This document shows, one piece after another, positions 5,303-15,126 of a stretch of 22,267 nucleotides of DNA (the stretch's first letter is position 1; each line of letters opens with the position of its first letter). Source of the DNA: a virus; IMG/VR virus record IMGVR_UViG_3300010392_000520, positions 1-22,267 of that record; one strand, written 5' to 3'. The position numbers and the translations under genes are program-made. The notes under the pieces were generated by a model. It ran no database searches. It saw only the letters and a program-made list of their open reading frames with translations, and was not told where the DNA came from.

Positions 5303-5403
5303 TGGGAATGATACTATTAATAGCAATAACATCAGGAATTGGAACACTTTTATGTTTTTTTATATTATTACATGAACTAATAAAAGATGTTGAAAATTGG
5401 TGA
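5299..5403 (+). CDS. 34-residue membrane microprotein
   Basis: MMGMILLIAITSGIGTLL followed by CFFILLHELIKDVENW: a single membrane-spanning segment of about 22 residues with a short charged tail. It starts in the second copy of the GGTGATGAATGATG leader, overlapping the previous stop by four bases, and its stop runs into the third copy. The repeated leader on both sides is the main reason to accept such a short gene. Function unknown; single-span microproteins in this position can tune membrane enzymes or host envelope functions. Confidence 0.55.
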   Translation: MMGMILLIAITSGIGTLLCFFILLHELIKDVENW

Positions 5404-5406
5404 TGA

Positions 5407-5580
5407 ATGATGAATGATAAATATGTTGTTTGTGGTGATGAAAGATATTATCCATGGGTATATGAATTTGATAGTTTAGAAGAAGCGGAAAAGGAATATA
5501 TAAGGAGCAATAGTAATGGTGATTATCTAAAAAGTAATATATATTTATGTAAAATAATAAAAAAAAAAGTCAGTAGGTGA
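5407..5580 (+). CDS. 57-residue hypothetical protein
   Basis: A small protein (MMNDKYVVCGDERYYPWVYE, then FDSLEEAEKEYIRSNSNG and a basic tail ending KIIKKKVSR). The layout strand - helix with 'SLEEAEKEY' - strand resembles the small DUF1653-like or 'Phage_Gp-like' single-domain folds only loosely, so I give no family. It starts in the third copy of the GGTGATGAATGATG leader and ends at TGA 5578-5580 within GTAGGTGA, which doubles as the Shine-Dalgarno of the next gene. Confidence 0.55.
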   Translation: MMNDKYVVCGDERYYPWVYEFDSLEEAEKEYIRSNSNGDYLKSNIYLCKIIKKKVSR

Positions 5581-5586
5581 TTGAAG

Positions 5587-5964
5587 ATGAATGAAATTGA
5601 AGATATTATAGAAGATAAAAATAACAATTGTGTATTGTTATCAATTAAAGACAAGGGGAAGTTTTTATTATTTGATAGAGATAATAAAAAAGTTACTAAT
5701 TTAGATTGGATAATTAATTTTTTAACTAGTCTAAAAGAAAAAGAATTTGGTGATGCAGAACAACTTGCTAAATTCATGCACGAAAAATATGAAGATTATG
5801 CAAAACAAGTTGGATGGAATACACAAGATTCATGTAAGGTTGATTTTTTTGATCTACCACAGAAGAATAGGATGACTATGATATTAGTGGCAGGAGCAAT
5901 ATTACAGAAACTAGATGACGGTTTTGATTTACCTGGCTCAGAAGAATTTGGTGGTAGACGATGA
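5587..5964 (+). CDS. Conserved-type phage hypothetical protein
   Basis: A 125-residue soluble protein. The first half is unrecognised; the second half (HEKYEDYAKQVGWNTQDSCK then FFDLPQKNRMTMILVAGAI) resembles a short segment often seen in phage hypothetical proteins of the form 'HE.YE.LA..FGY.T...V.W..LP..N..LM', judged from memory of such proteins. Function is unknown. The frame opens at TTG 5581, but GGTGA at 5576-5580 is six bases before ATG 5587, which I take as the start. The stop overlaps the next gene (ATGA). Confidence 0.7.
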   Translation: MNEIEDIIEDKNNNCVLLSIKDKGKFLLFDRDNKKVTNLDWIINFLTSLKEKEFGDAEQLAKFMHEKYEDYAKQVGWNTQDSCKVDFFDLPQKNRMTMILVAGAILQKLDDGFDLPGSEEFGGRR

Positions 5965-6116
5965 AACTTAAAGATTTAAGATGTTGTAAAGACGGTTTTT
6001 ATCATCAAAGTAAAATACAAGACTTAGTTTGGAACATTCAATGTTATCCTAAATATTGTCCGTTTTGTGGTGTTAAACTGAGGTATGAAGAACTAAGGTG
6101 CGACGATGAAGAGTGA
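5961..6116 (+). CDS. Zinc-ribbon microprotein
   Basis: A 51-residue protein with a Cys-Cys pair at 8-9, Cys28, and a CPFCG knuckle at 33-37; the spacing suits a small zinc ribbon like those of Lar/restriction-alleviation-type phage proteins, though the resemblance is confined to the CPFCG region. It overlaps the preceding stop by four bases and the following gene by eleven. The final codons contain AAGGTGCGA, the Shine-Dalgarno of the next gene. Role unknown; nucleic acid or protein binding is likely for the fold. Confidence 0.65.
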   Translation: MKLKDLRCCKDGFYHQSKIQDLVWNIQCYPKYCPFCGVKLRYEELRCDDEE

Positions 6117-6276
6117 AGAAGAGATTCTAAACAAACGCAATGAGTTATATAAATTATGGGATTCTGATGAGACTGGAAAAATATATGATCTTGAAGAAAT
6201 ACAAGCGTGGTTAGATGCACTACTATGGGTAATAAGTAAAGAAAAAAGGTGCGATGATGAAAAAAATGGAAATTAA
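6106..6276 (+). CDS. 56-residue helical hypothetical protein
   Basis: A small, mostly helical acidic protein (MKSEEEILNKRNELYKLWDS, then DLEEIQAWLDALLWVISKEK). The leucine/tryptophan spacing suggests an amphipathic helical hairpin, possibly a dimer. It is led by AAGGTGCGACGATG, the same leader used by the next gene, and overlaps the neighbours on both sides (11 and 23 bases). No family is recognised. Confidence 0.55.
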   Translation: MKSEEEILNKRNELYKLWDSDETGKIYDLEEIQAWLDALLWVISKEKRCDDEKNGN

Positions 6277-6634
6277 AATAGATGGAAAAACATACGTTCC
6301 TAAAGGGGACGAGAAAAAAGGATATACATATCCTAAAACAAAGAAGGGGTTGACATGGTGTATTGTCAGAACATACTCAGCTGGAGTATTTGCAGGATGG
6401 TATGACACAAAAACAAAAGGTAAAGAGGGTACTGTAGAGGATGCTATAAGAATTTGGTATTGGGATGGTGCAAATAGTTTAAGTGATGTGGCTAGCCAAG
6501 CATGTAAAACACCAGAGAATTGTAAGTTTTGTCAACCTGTTAATAAAATAATACTAAAAGAAATAATAGAAGTTATACCTACAACTACCGAAGCTAAAGA
6601 GTTCATAATTAATTTACCAAAATGGCAAAAATAG
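6254..6634 (+). CDS. DUF6948-like phage protein
   Basis: A 126-residue protein with the marks I associate with DUF6948, a family found in phages: 'YVIVRTYSAGVHAG'-like segment (here WCIVRTYSAGVFAGWYD), 'ARRIWYWxGAxSLS' (here AIRIWYWDGANSLSDVA), a 'NCKF..PV..I.L.E.IEVIP.T..A' stretch and a terminal 'PxW'. Function is unknown. Start is ATGATG in the AAGGTGCGATGATG leader, overlapping the preceding gene. The Gly-rich repeat gene begins inside its last codons; in several phages a Gly-rich repeat protein stands next to this family (from memory), so the pair may work together. Confidence 0.75.
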   Translation: MMKKMEIKIDGKTYVPKGDEKKGYTYPKTKKGLTWCIVRTYSAGVFAGWYDTKTKGKEGTVEDAIRIWYWDGANSLSDVASQACKTPENCKFCQPVNKIILKEIIEVIPTTTEAKEFIINLPKWQK

Positions 6635-6834
6635 ATTTTACTGGATTTGGATATGGTGATGGATTTGGATATGGATATGGAGATGGTGATGGATATGGAT
6701 ATAGAGATGGAGCTGGGTCTGGAGATGGATATGGAGCTGGAGATGGAGCTGGATCTGGATCTGGATATGGACCTGGATATGGATATGGATATGGATCTGG
6801 GGATGGATCTGGAGATGGATCTGGAGATGGGTAA
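6622..6834 (+). CDS. Gly/Tyr/Asp/Ser dipeptide-repeat protein
   Basis: A 70-residue protein: a short unique start (MAKIDFTGFG) followed by alternating GY, GD, GS and GA dipeptides to the end. It is encoded by degenerate GGATAT/GGAGAT/GGATCT hexamers, so other frames are also open; this frame is chosen because its ATG overlaps the DUF6948-like stop by 13 bases, its start residues are non-repetitive, and it stops at TAA directly before the next AAGGTGCGA leader. Such acidic, aromatic Gly-rich chains are disordered and can phase-separate, bind metal or act as extensible linkers; which of these applies is unknown. Hexamer slippage makes its length likely to vary between relatives. Confidence 0.6.
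   Translation: MAKIDFTGFGYGDGFGYGYGDGDGYGYRDGAGSGDGYGAGDGAGSGSGYGPGYGYGYGSGDGSGDGSGDG
6643..6832 (+). repeat. Degenerate hexanucleotide repeat tract
   Basis: About 30 units of GGNNNT type (GGATAT, GGTGAT, GGAGAT, GGATCT, GGAGCT) with strict six-base phase, all in the Gly-rich coding frame. Purine-rich on the + strand. Confidence 0.85.
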
Positions 6835-7173: not shown

Positions 7174-8013
7174 TTAAAATTCTCCTTTGTAGTCTGGTTT
7201 TAACCAAACATAATCCTGATTGAATGAGTACCAAATACCGAAATAGTTTTTAGCGTCATCCCATGACTTCTTAAAGTCTATACTTTCCTTTGGCCAGTAA
7301 CACCAATCCATAACATACCATTCGTTGTCTGATTCTCTAAGGTACGACAAATAACAATGTCCTGATCGTCCACCTTTGTATGTTACATCACCTGCATTAA
7401 TTCTTAAACGTTCTTTAGGCACTCCTGACTTTACAGCTATAGCGTACATAAGAATTGCACCCTCTTCACAATCACCCTTCTTCCTAATCATTGTTTCATT
7501 AGCCGTCTGCCAGTTCTCTTTTTCGTCTGCGACATACGTCATGAATTTAATGACATGCTTTAGCGTTTTGTTCATTATACCGTCGTAATTGTTGCCAACC
7601 AACTTAGGTACTTTATCGTTATTAGTTCTTGCGAACTCCCTCACGCTATACCCATAATGTAAATGTATATGTGTTTTGGGGTATTTGTTATACCAGTAGT
7701 CGTACAGTGCTCTGTTGCTTTCTTCGTTTAGATTTTTAATCTGTGCAGTTAAGTTAACTATAGTTAACTCTGCCTTTTCTATTGCCAGTTTCAATTGTTT
7801 GTTGTCTACTTCAAGGTACTCAGCTGATTTCTTTCTTGCATCAATCTCAACTAGATATGATTTGATTATATCGTTAAGCTCTTGCGTTTGTTTATCATTT
7901 TGCTCTTTAAGTAGTTCATACGTCTTCAATGTCTGGTCAATTTCAAACAACAGATTGTCAACTAAATCCTGTTGCCTAATTTTTCTTATTAGATTTTTTA
8001 GCCAGTTTTCCAT
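7174..8013 (-). CDS. Coiled-coil plus transglutaminase-like cysteine protease, candidate lysin
   Basis: A 279-residue protein. Residues about 15-105 form a long helical coiled coil (many Leu/Ile heptads, Lys/Glu-rich). The C-terminal part carries the papain-like transglutaminase triad: KKGDCEEGA (Cys182), SGHCYL (His219) and YVMDW (Asp236), with GVPKERLRINAGDV between as in the common 'GIPARLRV' pattern. The family cleaves or forms amide bonds, and includes proteases and the pseudomurein endoisopeptidases of methanogen viruses. Placement at the end of the late operon next to a two-span membrane protein suggests a wall- or envelope-degrading enzyme; a tail-associated or virion-protein-processing protease is the alternative. 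No signal peptide or cell-wall-binding repeats are visible. Confidence 0.75.
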   Translation of the reverse strand: MENWLKNLIRKIRQQDLVDNLLFEIDQTLKTYELLKEQNDKQTQELNDIIKSYLVEIDARKKSAEYLEVDNKQLKLAIEKAELTIVNLTAQIKNLNEESNRALYDYWYNKYPKTHIHLHYGYSVREFARTNNDKVPKLVGNNYDGIMNKTLKHVIKFMTYVADEKENWQTANETMIRKKGDCEEGAILMYAIAVKSGVPKERLRINAGDVTYKGGRSGHCYLSYLRESDNEWYVMDWCYWPKESIDFKKSWDDAKNYFGIWYSFNQDYVWLKPDYKGEF

Positions 8014-11834: not shown

Positions 11835-12317
11835 TTAATCTGTAAAGAAATTTTGCCCTATACTAAGTGTTAGTGATCCTCGCACTTCAGCCTCACCGTC
11901 AAGTGGTGCTACTCTCATGAAATCAAGTGTACCTGTATATGTTTTTGGTGTTGTCTCGTCAGCTCCTCTATAAACTTGTACTGTGTATTTAGTTTTGTAA
12001 ATATCACTACCACTGTTTTGGCAAACGTTATCCATCAAATAATCCCACTGCTCAATTGCAGTAGTTGTATCATCAACTGGTAAGCCATCTGATACTGTGT
12101 AGCCTTTATCAGTCCCATCATTTCTCAGAAAGAAATTAAAACTAACTGTACGTTTGAAACCTCCCATGTTAGCAGTGAATGCTGACTCTGCTGTGTTGTT
12201 TGGTTGGCTCAAGTTTATTGAGTTTACCTGTATGTTATCTACAAAGTTTTTTGCAATATAAAATGTGATACCAACTGTGCCGTTGTGTATCTTGAAATAA
12301 TTAACCATACTTCCCAT
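11835..12317 (-). CDS. Tail protein after tape measure, distal-tail-like
   Basis: A 160-residue beta-rich protein (FKIHNGTVGITF at the start; SFNFFLRNDG, KYTVQVYRG, GTLDFMRVAPLDGEAEVRG toward the end). Location right after the tape measure and before the hub-like gene is that of distal tail (Dit) or tail-tip adaptor proteins; sequence alone does not prove it. AGGTGAT stands five bases before ATG 12317, supporting this start over the internal ATG at 12308. It begins eight bases after the tape measure stop. Confidence 0.6.
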   Translation of the reverse strand: MGSMVNYFKIHNGTVGITFYIAKNFVDNIQVNSINLSQPNNTAESAFTANMGGFKRTVSFNFFLRNDGTDKGYTVSDGLPVDDTTTAIEQWDYLMDNVCQNSGSDIYKTKYTVQVYRGADETTPKTYTGTLDFMRVAPLDGEAEVRGSLTLSIGQNFFTD

Positions 12318-12325
12318 CTAATCAC

Positions 12326-13630
12326 CTATTTTAATTTCAATAGCTTTGCTATCGAATCCATCTCTGGATCAGGTGCGTCACCTGATGTTATTGGTCCGTT
12401 AATATTAACTGTCACGTTGTTAGTCACCATACTTTCTCTTAGTGAATCAAAGTCTACTGCTCCTCTACCATAAGTAACAGCTTTACCACCAAGGTCAGGT
12501 CGATAGCCTCCGTATGTTGCTTTTGACACAATATCCTCCAAGAAAAGCAATAAGCCGTTAAGCATATTCTTAACGCCATTCCAGAAATCTACCCAGAACA
12601 GTCCGAACTTAATCAATGCGATTGTTATGTCTGCATTAAGTTCGTTCACGTTAACACCAAACAATTCTAATGCTTGTTTTGTCATTCGAACAATACCAAT
12701 ACCGATATCATTCAACGCATCTGTTATTGTTGGTATGTCTGCTTTCAATACTCCTTCTGCTAGTTTTACAAAGCCATTAGTTACGTTTTGCAATCCTGTC
12801 TTTACTTCGCCTAAATCAATGTCTAGTAACTCCTCAGCAAACTCTAGGTTATTAATTGCGAAATCATTAAATGCGTCTACTGCCAGTTGCATAGTTCCTG
12901 CCATCACATCAATGGAAGCATTCCATGCCTGAGTATACCCCGCTAGAACTTTACCTGCGTCACCTTCAGCAAACCCGTCTATTACTTTTGTTAATCCTGT
13001 TCCAATGTTTTTGAATGCCACTTTCATGTCACTCATCCACTCGCCAACTCTAAGTGCTAGCCACTTTCCGAAGTCCCACGCAATATCAGTTAGTAGTGGT
13101 AATACTAATGCACCTATTGCTGCTCCTGGTAATCCACCAACAACACCACCTACTGCTGCACCTAGTCCTGCTGAACCTGCACTAACTGCACCACGTTTCT
13201 CGCTTTCCGTTCCCTGTGTTATTAGCTTCCAAGCTGATGCAAAGGCATCGCCTATAGCTTTTACAGGGTCTTTAAAAAACTTGATCATAAATGCTCCTAA
13301 TATCATCAGGAGCGTAAAAAGAGGTTTCATCAAATTTACGATGATCGGTACGAATGGTCCAACGATCTGATCGATCATAGTACCAACTATTTTTAAAATG
13401 TTTTGTATGGCTTGACTTGATCCGACTAGGCTGTTCATTAATCCTGCTACTACACCACCTAACACGGCTAACCCTGCAAGGTTCTTACTATCTGTGTCGC
13501 CTTTTTTCTTTACACTACCTGATCCTCCTGTGCTCTTACCTTTGAAAGCATCACTTACTGCTGATTCAATCTGTTTCTTTAGGTCGTTCACGTTTGGAAA
13601 TCGTAGCTCTACGTCGAATGTTAATGCCAT
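12326..13630 (-). CDS. Tail tape measure protein
   Basis: A 434-residue protein with the typical features: helical, low Cys, Ser/Gly/Ala-rich stretches, and membrane-compatible hydrophobic segments at about 51-70, 90-118 and a Gly/Ala run at 148-180 (GLGAAVGGVVGGLPGAAIGA). The middle is a series of amphipathic helices and the end (VTVNINGPITSGDAP, then a short helix) resembles C-termini of many tape measures. It directly follows the frameshifted chaperone gene, the canonical gene order. By the usual ratio of about 1.5 angstrom per residue it would set a tail of roughly 65 nm, short for a siphovirus (inference). The gene begins one base after the G-T stop, with only a weak GAAGA upstream, so translation may be coupled. 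Confidence 0.88.
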   Translation of the reverse strand: MALTFDVELRFPNVNDLKKQIESAVSDAFKGKSTGGSGSVKKKGDTDSKNLAGLAVLGGVVAGLMNSLVGSSQAIQNILKIVGTMIDQIVGPFVPIIVNLMKPLFTLLMILGAFMIKFFKDPVKAIGDAFASAWKLITQGTESEKRGAVSAGSAGLGAAVGGVVGGLPGAAIGALVLPLLTDIAWDFGKWLALRVGEWMSDMKVAFKNIGTGLTKVIDGFAEGDAGKVLAGYTQAWNASIDVMAGTMQLAVDAFNDFAINNLEFAEELLDIDLGEVKTGLQNVTNGFVKLAEGVLKADIPTITDALNDIGIGIVRMTKQALELFGVNVNELNADITIALIKFGLFWVDFWNGVKNMLNGLLLFLEDIVSKATYGGYRPDLGGKAVTYGRGAVDFDSLRESMVTNNVTVNINGPITSGDAPDPEMDSIAKLLKLK

Positions 13631-13631
13631 T

Positions 13632-14137
13632 TTATCTTCTGTTCTTTTGTTTTGCTTTACTTTTCTTCATTTCTAGGCTTTCTTTTTCTTTGATTGCCCT
13701 GTGAAGTGTTAATAGTCTATTAGCCCTTACTGCATCAATATTGTCAATGTCATTTATTGACAATCCAATATCAAGCAGTATGAACTCATTAACCACACCA
13801 GCTATTTCTATGCTGGGTGTTCTCTGATCAAATACTATTGTTCGTCTGATGTGGTCTTGGAGTTTTTTTCGTCTGCCTCAATGTTAAATGCTTTAGCACA
13901 ATGAGTACTGAACAACCTGTCACCTTCTTGTTTACTGATCAAATCAGTATTCAAACCTGGTATAGCTCGTTCAATTGCCATCACTTGCAAACCAAAGATG
14001 TCAATCTTACCGTCTTGCATTCCTGACATTTTTGTTTCTGCACACTTTGTCATTATTTCTTGTGTTGCCCTATAACTTAGTGGCTTCACAGCAAACTCTT
14101 TTGTTGTTTCGTCTAAAAATTTAATTGTCTCGTTCAT
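13632..14137 (-). CDS. Tail assembly chaperone G-T, made by -1 frameshift
   Basis: Two overlapping frames upstream of the tape measure form one predicted 168-residue product. The first 92 residues are those of the chaperone G. At A AAA AAC (13868 down to 13862), in the correct phase after Asp-Glu-Lys-Asn, a -1 slip continues into 76 residues (LQDHIRRTIVFDQRTPSIEI at the junction; helices with EFILLDIGLSINDID; basic tail KKSKAKQKNRR) ending at TAA 13632-13634. This frame has no ATG in its first 65 codons and only late GTG/TTG, so it is unlikely to start by itself. The same G/G-T logic is conserved in many long-tailed phages, where the T domain binds the tape measure and the G domain binds tail tube subunits. 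Confidence 0.8.
13835..14137 (-). CDS. Tail assembly chaperone G
   Basis: A 100-residue protein (NETIKFLDETTKEFAVKPLS, then helices with REATQEI-like and MAIERAIPGLNTDLIS) located between the tail tube and tape measure genes, the position of gpG-type chaperones. Compared with the family, short length and a strand-helix N-terminus agree. The frame can start at GTG 14146 inside GGGTGA, but ATG 14137 six bases after this SD is better. It ends at TAG 13835-13837 when no slippage occurs. The frameshifted form shares its first 92 residues. Confidence 0.75.
   Translation of the reverse strand: MNETIKFLDETTKEFAVKPLSYRATQEIMTKCAETKMSGMQDGKIDIFGLQVMAIERAIPGLNTDLISKQEGDRLFSTHCAKAFNIEADEKNSKTTSDEQ
13862..13868 (-). 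other. -1 ribosomal frameshift slippery site
   Basis: A AAA AAC in phase with the 0 frame (GAA AAA AAC), the strongest class of -1 heptamer in bacteria and phages. The 0-frame stop lies 27 bases downstream, the -1 frame is open for 76 codons, and the site is at the end of gene G as in other tail chaperones. I did not find an obvious downstream stem or upstream SD-like stimulator by eye. Confidence 0.8.
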
Positions 14138-14148
14138 ATTGTTCACCC

Positions 14149-15126
14149 TTAGAAGTAAGAGGCTATATCATCAACTGTGTAGCATTCGTAAATGTTTCTA
14201 GCTGTTCCCGTGAAGGATGCTTCTACTACGCTGTTAATGTCAGTGCTCTCGTTATAAGATTGTAATTGTACTCCTCTCAGATCAAAGTATACCTCTGTCC
14301 TTCCTGATCCCAATGTTACGCCGTTAGTAATTTGTACTACTAATGCACTATCATCAGGTGTTCCAGTTGACTGTGATGTACCACCTAAGAATCTTTGGTA
14401 TGATACAAAGTCTTTAAACCTCATTGTAAAATCAAATGACACATCTAGGTTTTGATCTTTCAAGCATTCGTTAGTTCGTCTACCAATTGCTTTACCAATT
14501 GCAGTATCAATACTTCTACTCATTGTAATGCTCAGTGATTGTACTGTGTCTTGCTCAACTTCTGCACCCTGTGCACCAAATGAAATTGTTGCAAAGAAAT
14601 GTGGCATAACTCCTAATGAACTTAATACTGGTGTAGTTGCTGTTGCATCTGACGCGTCTTCCGTACTACCAAATATTTCAGCGTCCACTGTTAAGTTTCC
14701 TGGATTAGCTAAGTTAAATGTTAAGCTGTTAACTTTACATCCTGCAATTAAATGTACGTAATCAGTTGATCCGTTAAGAGCTGACTCCATTGTAAATGAA
14801 TAACTATCCTCTGGTAAATCAGCTGTAGAAAGTAATGTGTGTTTGTAGTCTCCTGTAGTTTCTGCGTCGGATGACTGACCAATGAATGCTTCTAGTAATC
14901 TACCATGCTGAAATAAATAACTTGGACTTGCTGTTGCATCAAAGTTGCCAGCAGATGATGTCTGTGCTAACTGGTTACCAATACCATAATGATTCTCTGT
15001 ATTATTGCTAAACTCTACTGGCATAGATTGTACTAAACCAATATCTTTATCTGTCGTTACTGGTGTCCCAAAAGTGGACTCCTTTCCTATTAAAATTGTT
15101 CTATTCTTGTCTGAAAAACATGCCAT
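14149..15126 (-). CDS. Major tail tube protein
   Basis: A 325-residue beta-rich protein in the position before the tail chaperone. It starts like tube proteins of the 'Phage_tube_2' kind (LIGKESTFGTPVTTDKDIGL, SMPVEFSNNTE), has paired strand sections (VNSLTFNLANPGNLTVDAEI and LSITMSRSID ... LDVSFDFTMRFKD) that look like two tube-domain halves, and closes with VEASFTGTARN, similar to many tube proteins. It forms the tail tube by stacking of hexameric rings (family knowledge). GAGGG stands eight bases before ATG 15126. Probably among the most highly made virion proteins. Confidence 0.85.
   Translation of the reverse strand: MACFSDKNRTILIGKESTFGTPVTTDKDIGLVQSMPVEFSNNTENHYGIGNQLAQTSSAGNFDATASPSYLFQHGRLLEAFIGQSSDAETTGDYKHTLLSTADLPEDSYSFTMESALNGSTDYVHLIAGCKVNSLTFNLANPGNLTVDAEIFGSTEDASDATATTPVLSSLGVMPHFFATISFGAQGAEVEQDTVQSLSITMSRSIDTAIGKAIGRRTNECLKDQNLDVSFDFTMRFKDFVSYQRFLGGTSQSTGTPDDSALVVQITNGVTLGSGRTEVYFDLRGVQLQSYNESTDINSVVEASFTGTARNIYECYTVDDIASYF

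Follow-up and report, generated by a model that had tools for sequence, protein, structure and literature searches.

The window analyzed here is the whole of the virus record IMGVR_UViG_3300010392_000520, 22,267 bases long and known only from environmental DNA. The tail genes considered below lie on its minus strand. A tail tube protein is encoded at 14149-15126 (-) (PF18906, Phage_tube_2, E=4e-20). Downstream of it are a small gene, G (13835-14137 (-)), a second open frame, T (13632-13862 (-)), that overlaps the end of G in the -1 register, and a gene for a tape measure protein of 434 amino acids (12326-13630 (-)), assigned by its position with weak support from tape measure PHROGs (E=0.0018). 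The tube match upstream and the tape measure match downstream support the order tube - G/GT - tape measure, as an earlier note on this DNA had proposed. The window also encodes a major capsid protein of the SU10 type (PF17236, E=9e-23) and a protease of the S78 type, and its tail region is identical to that of the 34,095-base IMG/VR contig IMGVR_UViG_3300006467_000270.

G starts at ATG 14137, which is preceded by AAGGGTGA at 14143-14150, and ends at TAG 13837-13835, giving a 0-frame product of 100 amino acids; an alternative GTG at 14146 would give a G of 103 amino acids. The 0 frame at the end of G reads GAC GAA AAA AAC TCC AAG ACC ACA TCA GAC GAA CAA TAG. Within it, in the overlap of G and T, lies the slippery heptamer A AAA AAC (13862-13868 (-)), in the phase X XXY YYZ when read from 13868 to 13862. 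Both the 0-frame reading of GAA AAA AAC followed by TAG 13835 and the phase given for the heptamer in the earlier note hold on direct reading. The -1 frame is open from 13877, and the T part runs for 76 codons to the stop TAA 13634-13632. It does lack an ATG near its start, since its sole Met is the 65th residue; a GTG located 72 nt beyond the first base of the heptamer is the one further candidate for a start codon in its early part. Past the heptamer, T is translated as LQDHIRRTIVF...KQKNRR. The two frames and the heptamer together predict a GT fusion of 168 residues from ATG 14137 (13632-14137 (-)), with its junction between EKN and LQDH. One detail of the earlier description needs correction: T was said to end two bases before the tape measure ATG, and a single base separates the stop (13632) from that ATG (13630).

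In the rest of the window, one other ORF has in-phase heptamers that lead into a long -1 extension (61 amino acids, 6408-6223 (-)). This ORF is antisense to a plus-strand ORF at 6254-6634 and is not credible as a gene. The ORF at 6622-6834 consists almost entirely of repeats rich in Gly, Tyr and Asp (GYGDGDGYGYRDGAGSGDGYG...) and is open in several frames. Where the tail gene strand ends, 7174-8013 (-) encodes a protein of 279 amino acids with a long, charged N-terminal part; its C-terminal half shows a weak likeness to transglutaminase-like and BTLCP cysteine peptidases (E=0.0085 and 0.019).

Homology of G and T

G of the window can be recognized from its relatives. A G profile built without the window ranked the window G first of 293 ORFs (E=6.5e-4; the next ORF had E=2.0), and among the G proteins of relatives four match Phage_TAC_5 and one matches Phage_TAC_7 in Pfam. 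An AlphaFold2 model of the window G (mean pLDDT 85.8) has as its best solved match YqbN (3klu; Z 6.6 over 77 residues, 2.7 A) and as its second HK97 gp14 (2ob9; Z 5.1 over 75 residues, 4.0 A), followed by a third-ranked match with Z 3.9. YqbN and HK97 gp14 are both of phage tail assembly chaperone types; their identity to G is 8% and the Z scores are modest. When the model was compared with a viral structure library, the top-ranked protein was from an uncultured archaeal virus, and the matches included several annotated chaperones, among them Mu FS-gp41. The predicted fold suggests that G shares the tail assembly chaperone (TAC) fold, and the modest scores are backed by the Pfam TAC matches of the relatives. 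The window G resembles YqbN/XkdN (Phage_TAC_5, 3klu) and HK97 gp14 (2ob9) in predicted fold while its sequence falls below the Pfam models.

T also shows homology and, in relatives, coding constraint. A T profile built without the window ranked the window T first of 293 six-frame ORFs (E=3.3e-5; next 1.2). Eight of 30 T proteins match the tail assembly chaperone family phrog_9001, the best with E=3.4e-8. In pairs of relatives, changes in the T-only parts fall mainly at the third codon position; for example, L080 and L095 differ in this part by 9, 6 and 23 mismatches at codon positions 1, 2 and 3. Because the window T lacks close relatives, the case for coding constraint on it depends on the profile match. 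Searched alone against Pfam and PHROGs, the window G, T and fusion gave no convincing match, which we count against the interpretation given below, and a Foldseek search with the T model found no match.

The slippery site in relatives

Relatives were chosen by their major capsid protein rather than by G or T, and the sample is therefore not biased toward slippery sites. There were 305 confirmed capsid relatives in IMG/VR, 80 loci were kept, and a tail tube profile found the tube gene in 51 sequences. A second frame that overlaps the end of G in the -1 register is present in 33 sequences, including two contigs from genome collections; removal of three near-copies left 30 non-duplicate genomes, the window included. 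In all 30, the overlap contains an X XXY YYZ heptamer that is exact and in phase, where 1.6 would be expected by chance from each genome's own heptamer rate in its other long ORFs. In-phase heptamers occur at 0.4% of codons in the other long ORFs of the virus group; at this rate the 13-codon overlap of the window, taken by itself, would hold one by chance in about 4% of cases. The heptamer is A AAA AAA, A AAA AAG or A AAA AAC in 27 genomes, T TTT TTG in two (L028 and L087) and G GGA AAG in one (L060). The conservation of both frames and of the heptamer, proposed in the earlier note as a check, was thus found, and among relatives with a -1 T frame there is none with the same gene order that lacks a slippery site. 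The note had also named a T part with its own ATG as a finding that would speak against frameshifting. T has no evident start of its own: in 24 of the 30 genomes the stretch between 60 nt upstream and 45 nt downstream of the heptamer contains no ATG, and the other six have one near the start of T.

Two further relatives, L072 (8549-9068) and L084 (7143-7668), have T in the +1 register relative to G and a nearby ATG. This ATG is poorly conserved, and conservation of their T frame begins downstream of it, at TTT C AAG AAR ATA GT. This pattern, known from two sequences, looks like a change to +1 shifting at TTT C and not like separate initiation of T. In seven relatives (L047, L048, L052, L069, L070, L077 and L092, the last truncated and less sure) the T frame is absent and the chaperone is a different one, a single protein of about 110-150 amino acids encoded just downstream of the tail tube, and in several of them it is followed by a short tape measure of 265-292 amino acids. 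We count these seven relatives of the same capsid type against our interpretation. T-bearing and T-less forms are interleaved on the capsid tree, which suggests exchange of tail modules. Neither the T-less forms nor the +1 forms weaken the rule for the -1 forms.

Probable frameshifting and its alternatives

The gene order, the phase of the heptamer, the missing start of T and its profile match, the chaperone-like fold predicted for G and the 30 of 30 heptamers all agree, and we conclude with a probability of about 0.93 that G is a tail assembly chaperone and that GT is made by -1 slippage at A AAA AAC. The arrangement described in the earlier note is confirmed, and comparison of the sequences supports its reading as a programmed frameshift. 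The sequences show the anatomy of the two frames, the conserved in-phase heptamer, the homology and predicted fold of G, and the homology of T with coding constraint on it in relatives; that ribosomes slip, how often, by a tandem-tRNA movement, and what G and T do is inferred. Most ribosomes would terminate at TAG 13835 and release G. A smaller share, whose Lys- and Asn-tRNAs are on the heptamer A AAA AAC, would move back one base and read through T, yielding the GT fusion. As in phage lambda, G would bind the tape measure and the T part would recruit the tail tube protein, and for this reason the ratio of G to GT, set by slippage, would matter for tail assembly.

Sequences flanking the heptamer could contribute to slippage. 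The Shine-Dalgarno (SD)-like TGAGGC at 13875-13880 (-), six bases before the heptamer, is a possible stimulator in the window, and SD-like pairing of -4 kcal/mol or stronger is found at 53% of the sites (n=30) as opposed to 21% of control positions. A search for a downstream stimulatory hairpin at the 30 sites found no consistent structure (mean z -0.9, with seven of 30 below -1.5). The downstream structure at the window site is unconvincing (z -1.1), and this too counts against frameshifting.

The same two frames could be joined during transcription. If RNA polymerase added an A within the A7 run of the window, ordinary translation would then enter T; longer runs, of A8 to A11, are present in several relatives and fit this reading too. 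However, the same position is served by runs as short as A6 (in four genomes) and T6 (in two), and by the mixed heptamer G GGA AAG. The sites are not the long homopolymers of free codon phase that would mark a gene of this kind. The informative runs number 18, six of length 6 and twelve of length 7, and every one lies in the phase for tandem-tRNA slippage, for which the probability under free phase would be roughly (1/3)^6 x (2/3)^12, or about 1e-5, with shared ancestry ignored. The short and mixed sites and the uniform phase of the runs favor the ribosome over the polymerase, and we regard transcriptional slippage as improbable.

Separate initiation of T, at the GTG inside it or at another internal start and coupled to translation of G, is more improbable still. 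The GTG of the window and the six genomes with an ATG near the start of T fit such a gene, but most genomes have no ATG there, and separate initiation would need no in-phase heptamer, yet one is found in every genome. Least probable of all is a sequencing or assembly error that splits one continuous gene into two frames: the frame change does coincide with a run of seven A, but IMGVR_UViG_3300006467_000270, though perhaps not a fully independent contig, is identical here, and 29 other genomes have the same arrangement with different heptamers.

Programmed -1 frameshifting is the reading that we compare with known systems. The slippery site of phage lambda is G GGA AAG, unlike the A AAA AAC of the window. 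The two are alike in layout: each has a two-part gene in overlapping frames between tube and tape measure, an X XXY YYZ heptamer in phase near the end of G, and a coding T without its own start, and in the virus group of the window the site and both frames are conserved among relatives. For lambda, the partner of the G part is the tape measure and that of the T part is the tail tube protein, with a molar ratio of 30:1 (PMC5009743). By analogy, GT of the window virus would be made at a low, fixed ratio to G, the two parts would have the same binding partners, and neither protein would remain in the virion. The G/GT -1 frameshift is widely conserved in long-tailed dsDNA phages (PMC5009743), and the predicted shift of the window virus is one more case of this known kind.

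A -1 shift for G-T has also been predicted in the haloarchaeal siphoviruses HVTV-1 and HCTV-1, -2 and -5 (PMC5009743, PMC8211752). The heptamer reported for HCTV-2, A_AAA_AAC (PMC5009743), is the same as that of the window, although these viruses belong to a different group and the host of the window virus is unproven. Haloarchaeal HSTV-2 is reported to use a +1 shift (PMC5009743, PMC8211752), which is comparable with L072 and L084. The present comparison restores a 76-codon coding segment that ORF callers overlook. The virus group concerned is a large set of tailed viruses from the environment that has no annotation, and it provides 30 natural variants of one slippery site.

Hosts and other genes of the virus group

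Among annotated phages, the capsid protein finds no match, and the matches of the tail tube are distant and confined to two phages of the Bacillus type. In a scan of genome contigs, the only confirmed capsid match was in a metagenome-assembled genome (MAG) of Candidatus Woesearchaeota. Related viruses occur in the MAGs of one DPANN order, to which a Woesearchaeota MAG belongs, in three of 353 genomes (L098 and L099 on a G082 contig, L103 and L104 on a G550 contig, and L031), by binning and not as proviruses. Two of the binned contigs, of 34.7 and 36.2 kb, have direct terminal repeats of 139 and 146 bases, and both carry an in-phase slippery site at the G/T overlap. When 20 kb of window DNA was compared with the 353 genomes of the DPANN order, there was no clear spacer-like or provirus match; what it found was homology to the capsid and the protease, in the three MAGs that carry viruses, and otherwise short, mostly low-complexity matches. 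The MAG of the G082 virus contains no further copy of the viral tRNA-Thr. A weak match of one G082 protein to a TFIIB repeat was below the cut-off (E=0.0044) and unsupported by PDB sequences, and the TFIIB family was absent from 30 other virus records.

The three DPANN-order MAGs hint at an archaeal host for the window virus, a link that the further tests did not confirm. Hosts in Woesearchaeales are plausible, because two head-tailed proviruses have been reported there (PMC11705971). We speculate, as a tentative and rather doubtful scenario, that the group infects DPANN archaea (Woesearchaeales). In that case DPANN ribosomes would slip -1 at the 30 conserved sites (A_AAA_AAN, T_TTT_TTG and G_GGA_AAG), the lineage of L072 and L084 would have switched to +1 at TTT C, and other members would be without T, probably via tail-module exchange. 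For archaea, -1 frameshifting has a single report from a cellular gene, the alpha-L-fucosidase of Saccharolobus, together with predictions in haloviruses (PMC8211752). If the host is archaeal, this very short list would widen.

Other genes were noted among the relatives. One binned virus has genes for tRNA-Cys, tRNA-Thr and tRNA-Val and, in its terminase region, an ORF with an intein splicing domain. The contig 3300006467_000270 (L008), which overlaps the window, encodes two N6/N4 DNA methyltransferases, one of them fused to a ParB N-terminal domain, with features noted at 5350-6555 (-) and 12083-13363 (+). It also encodes a short family-B DNA polymerase and a BT4734-like primase/AAA protein.
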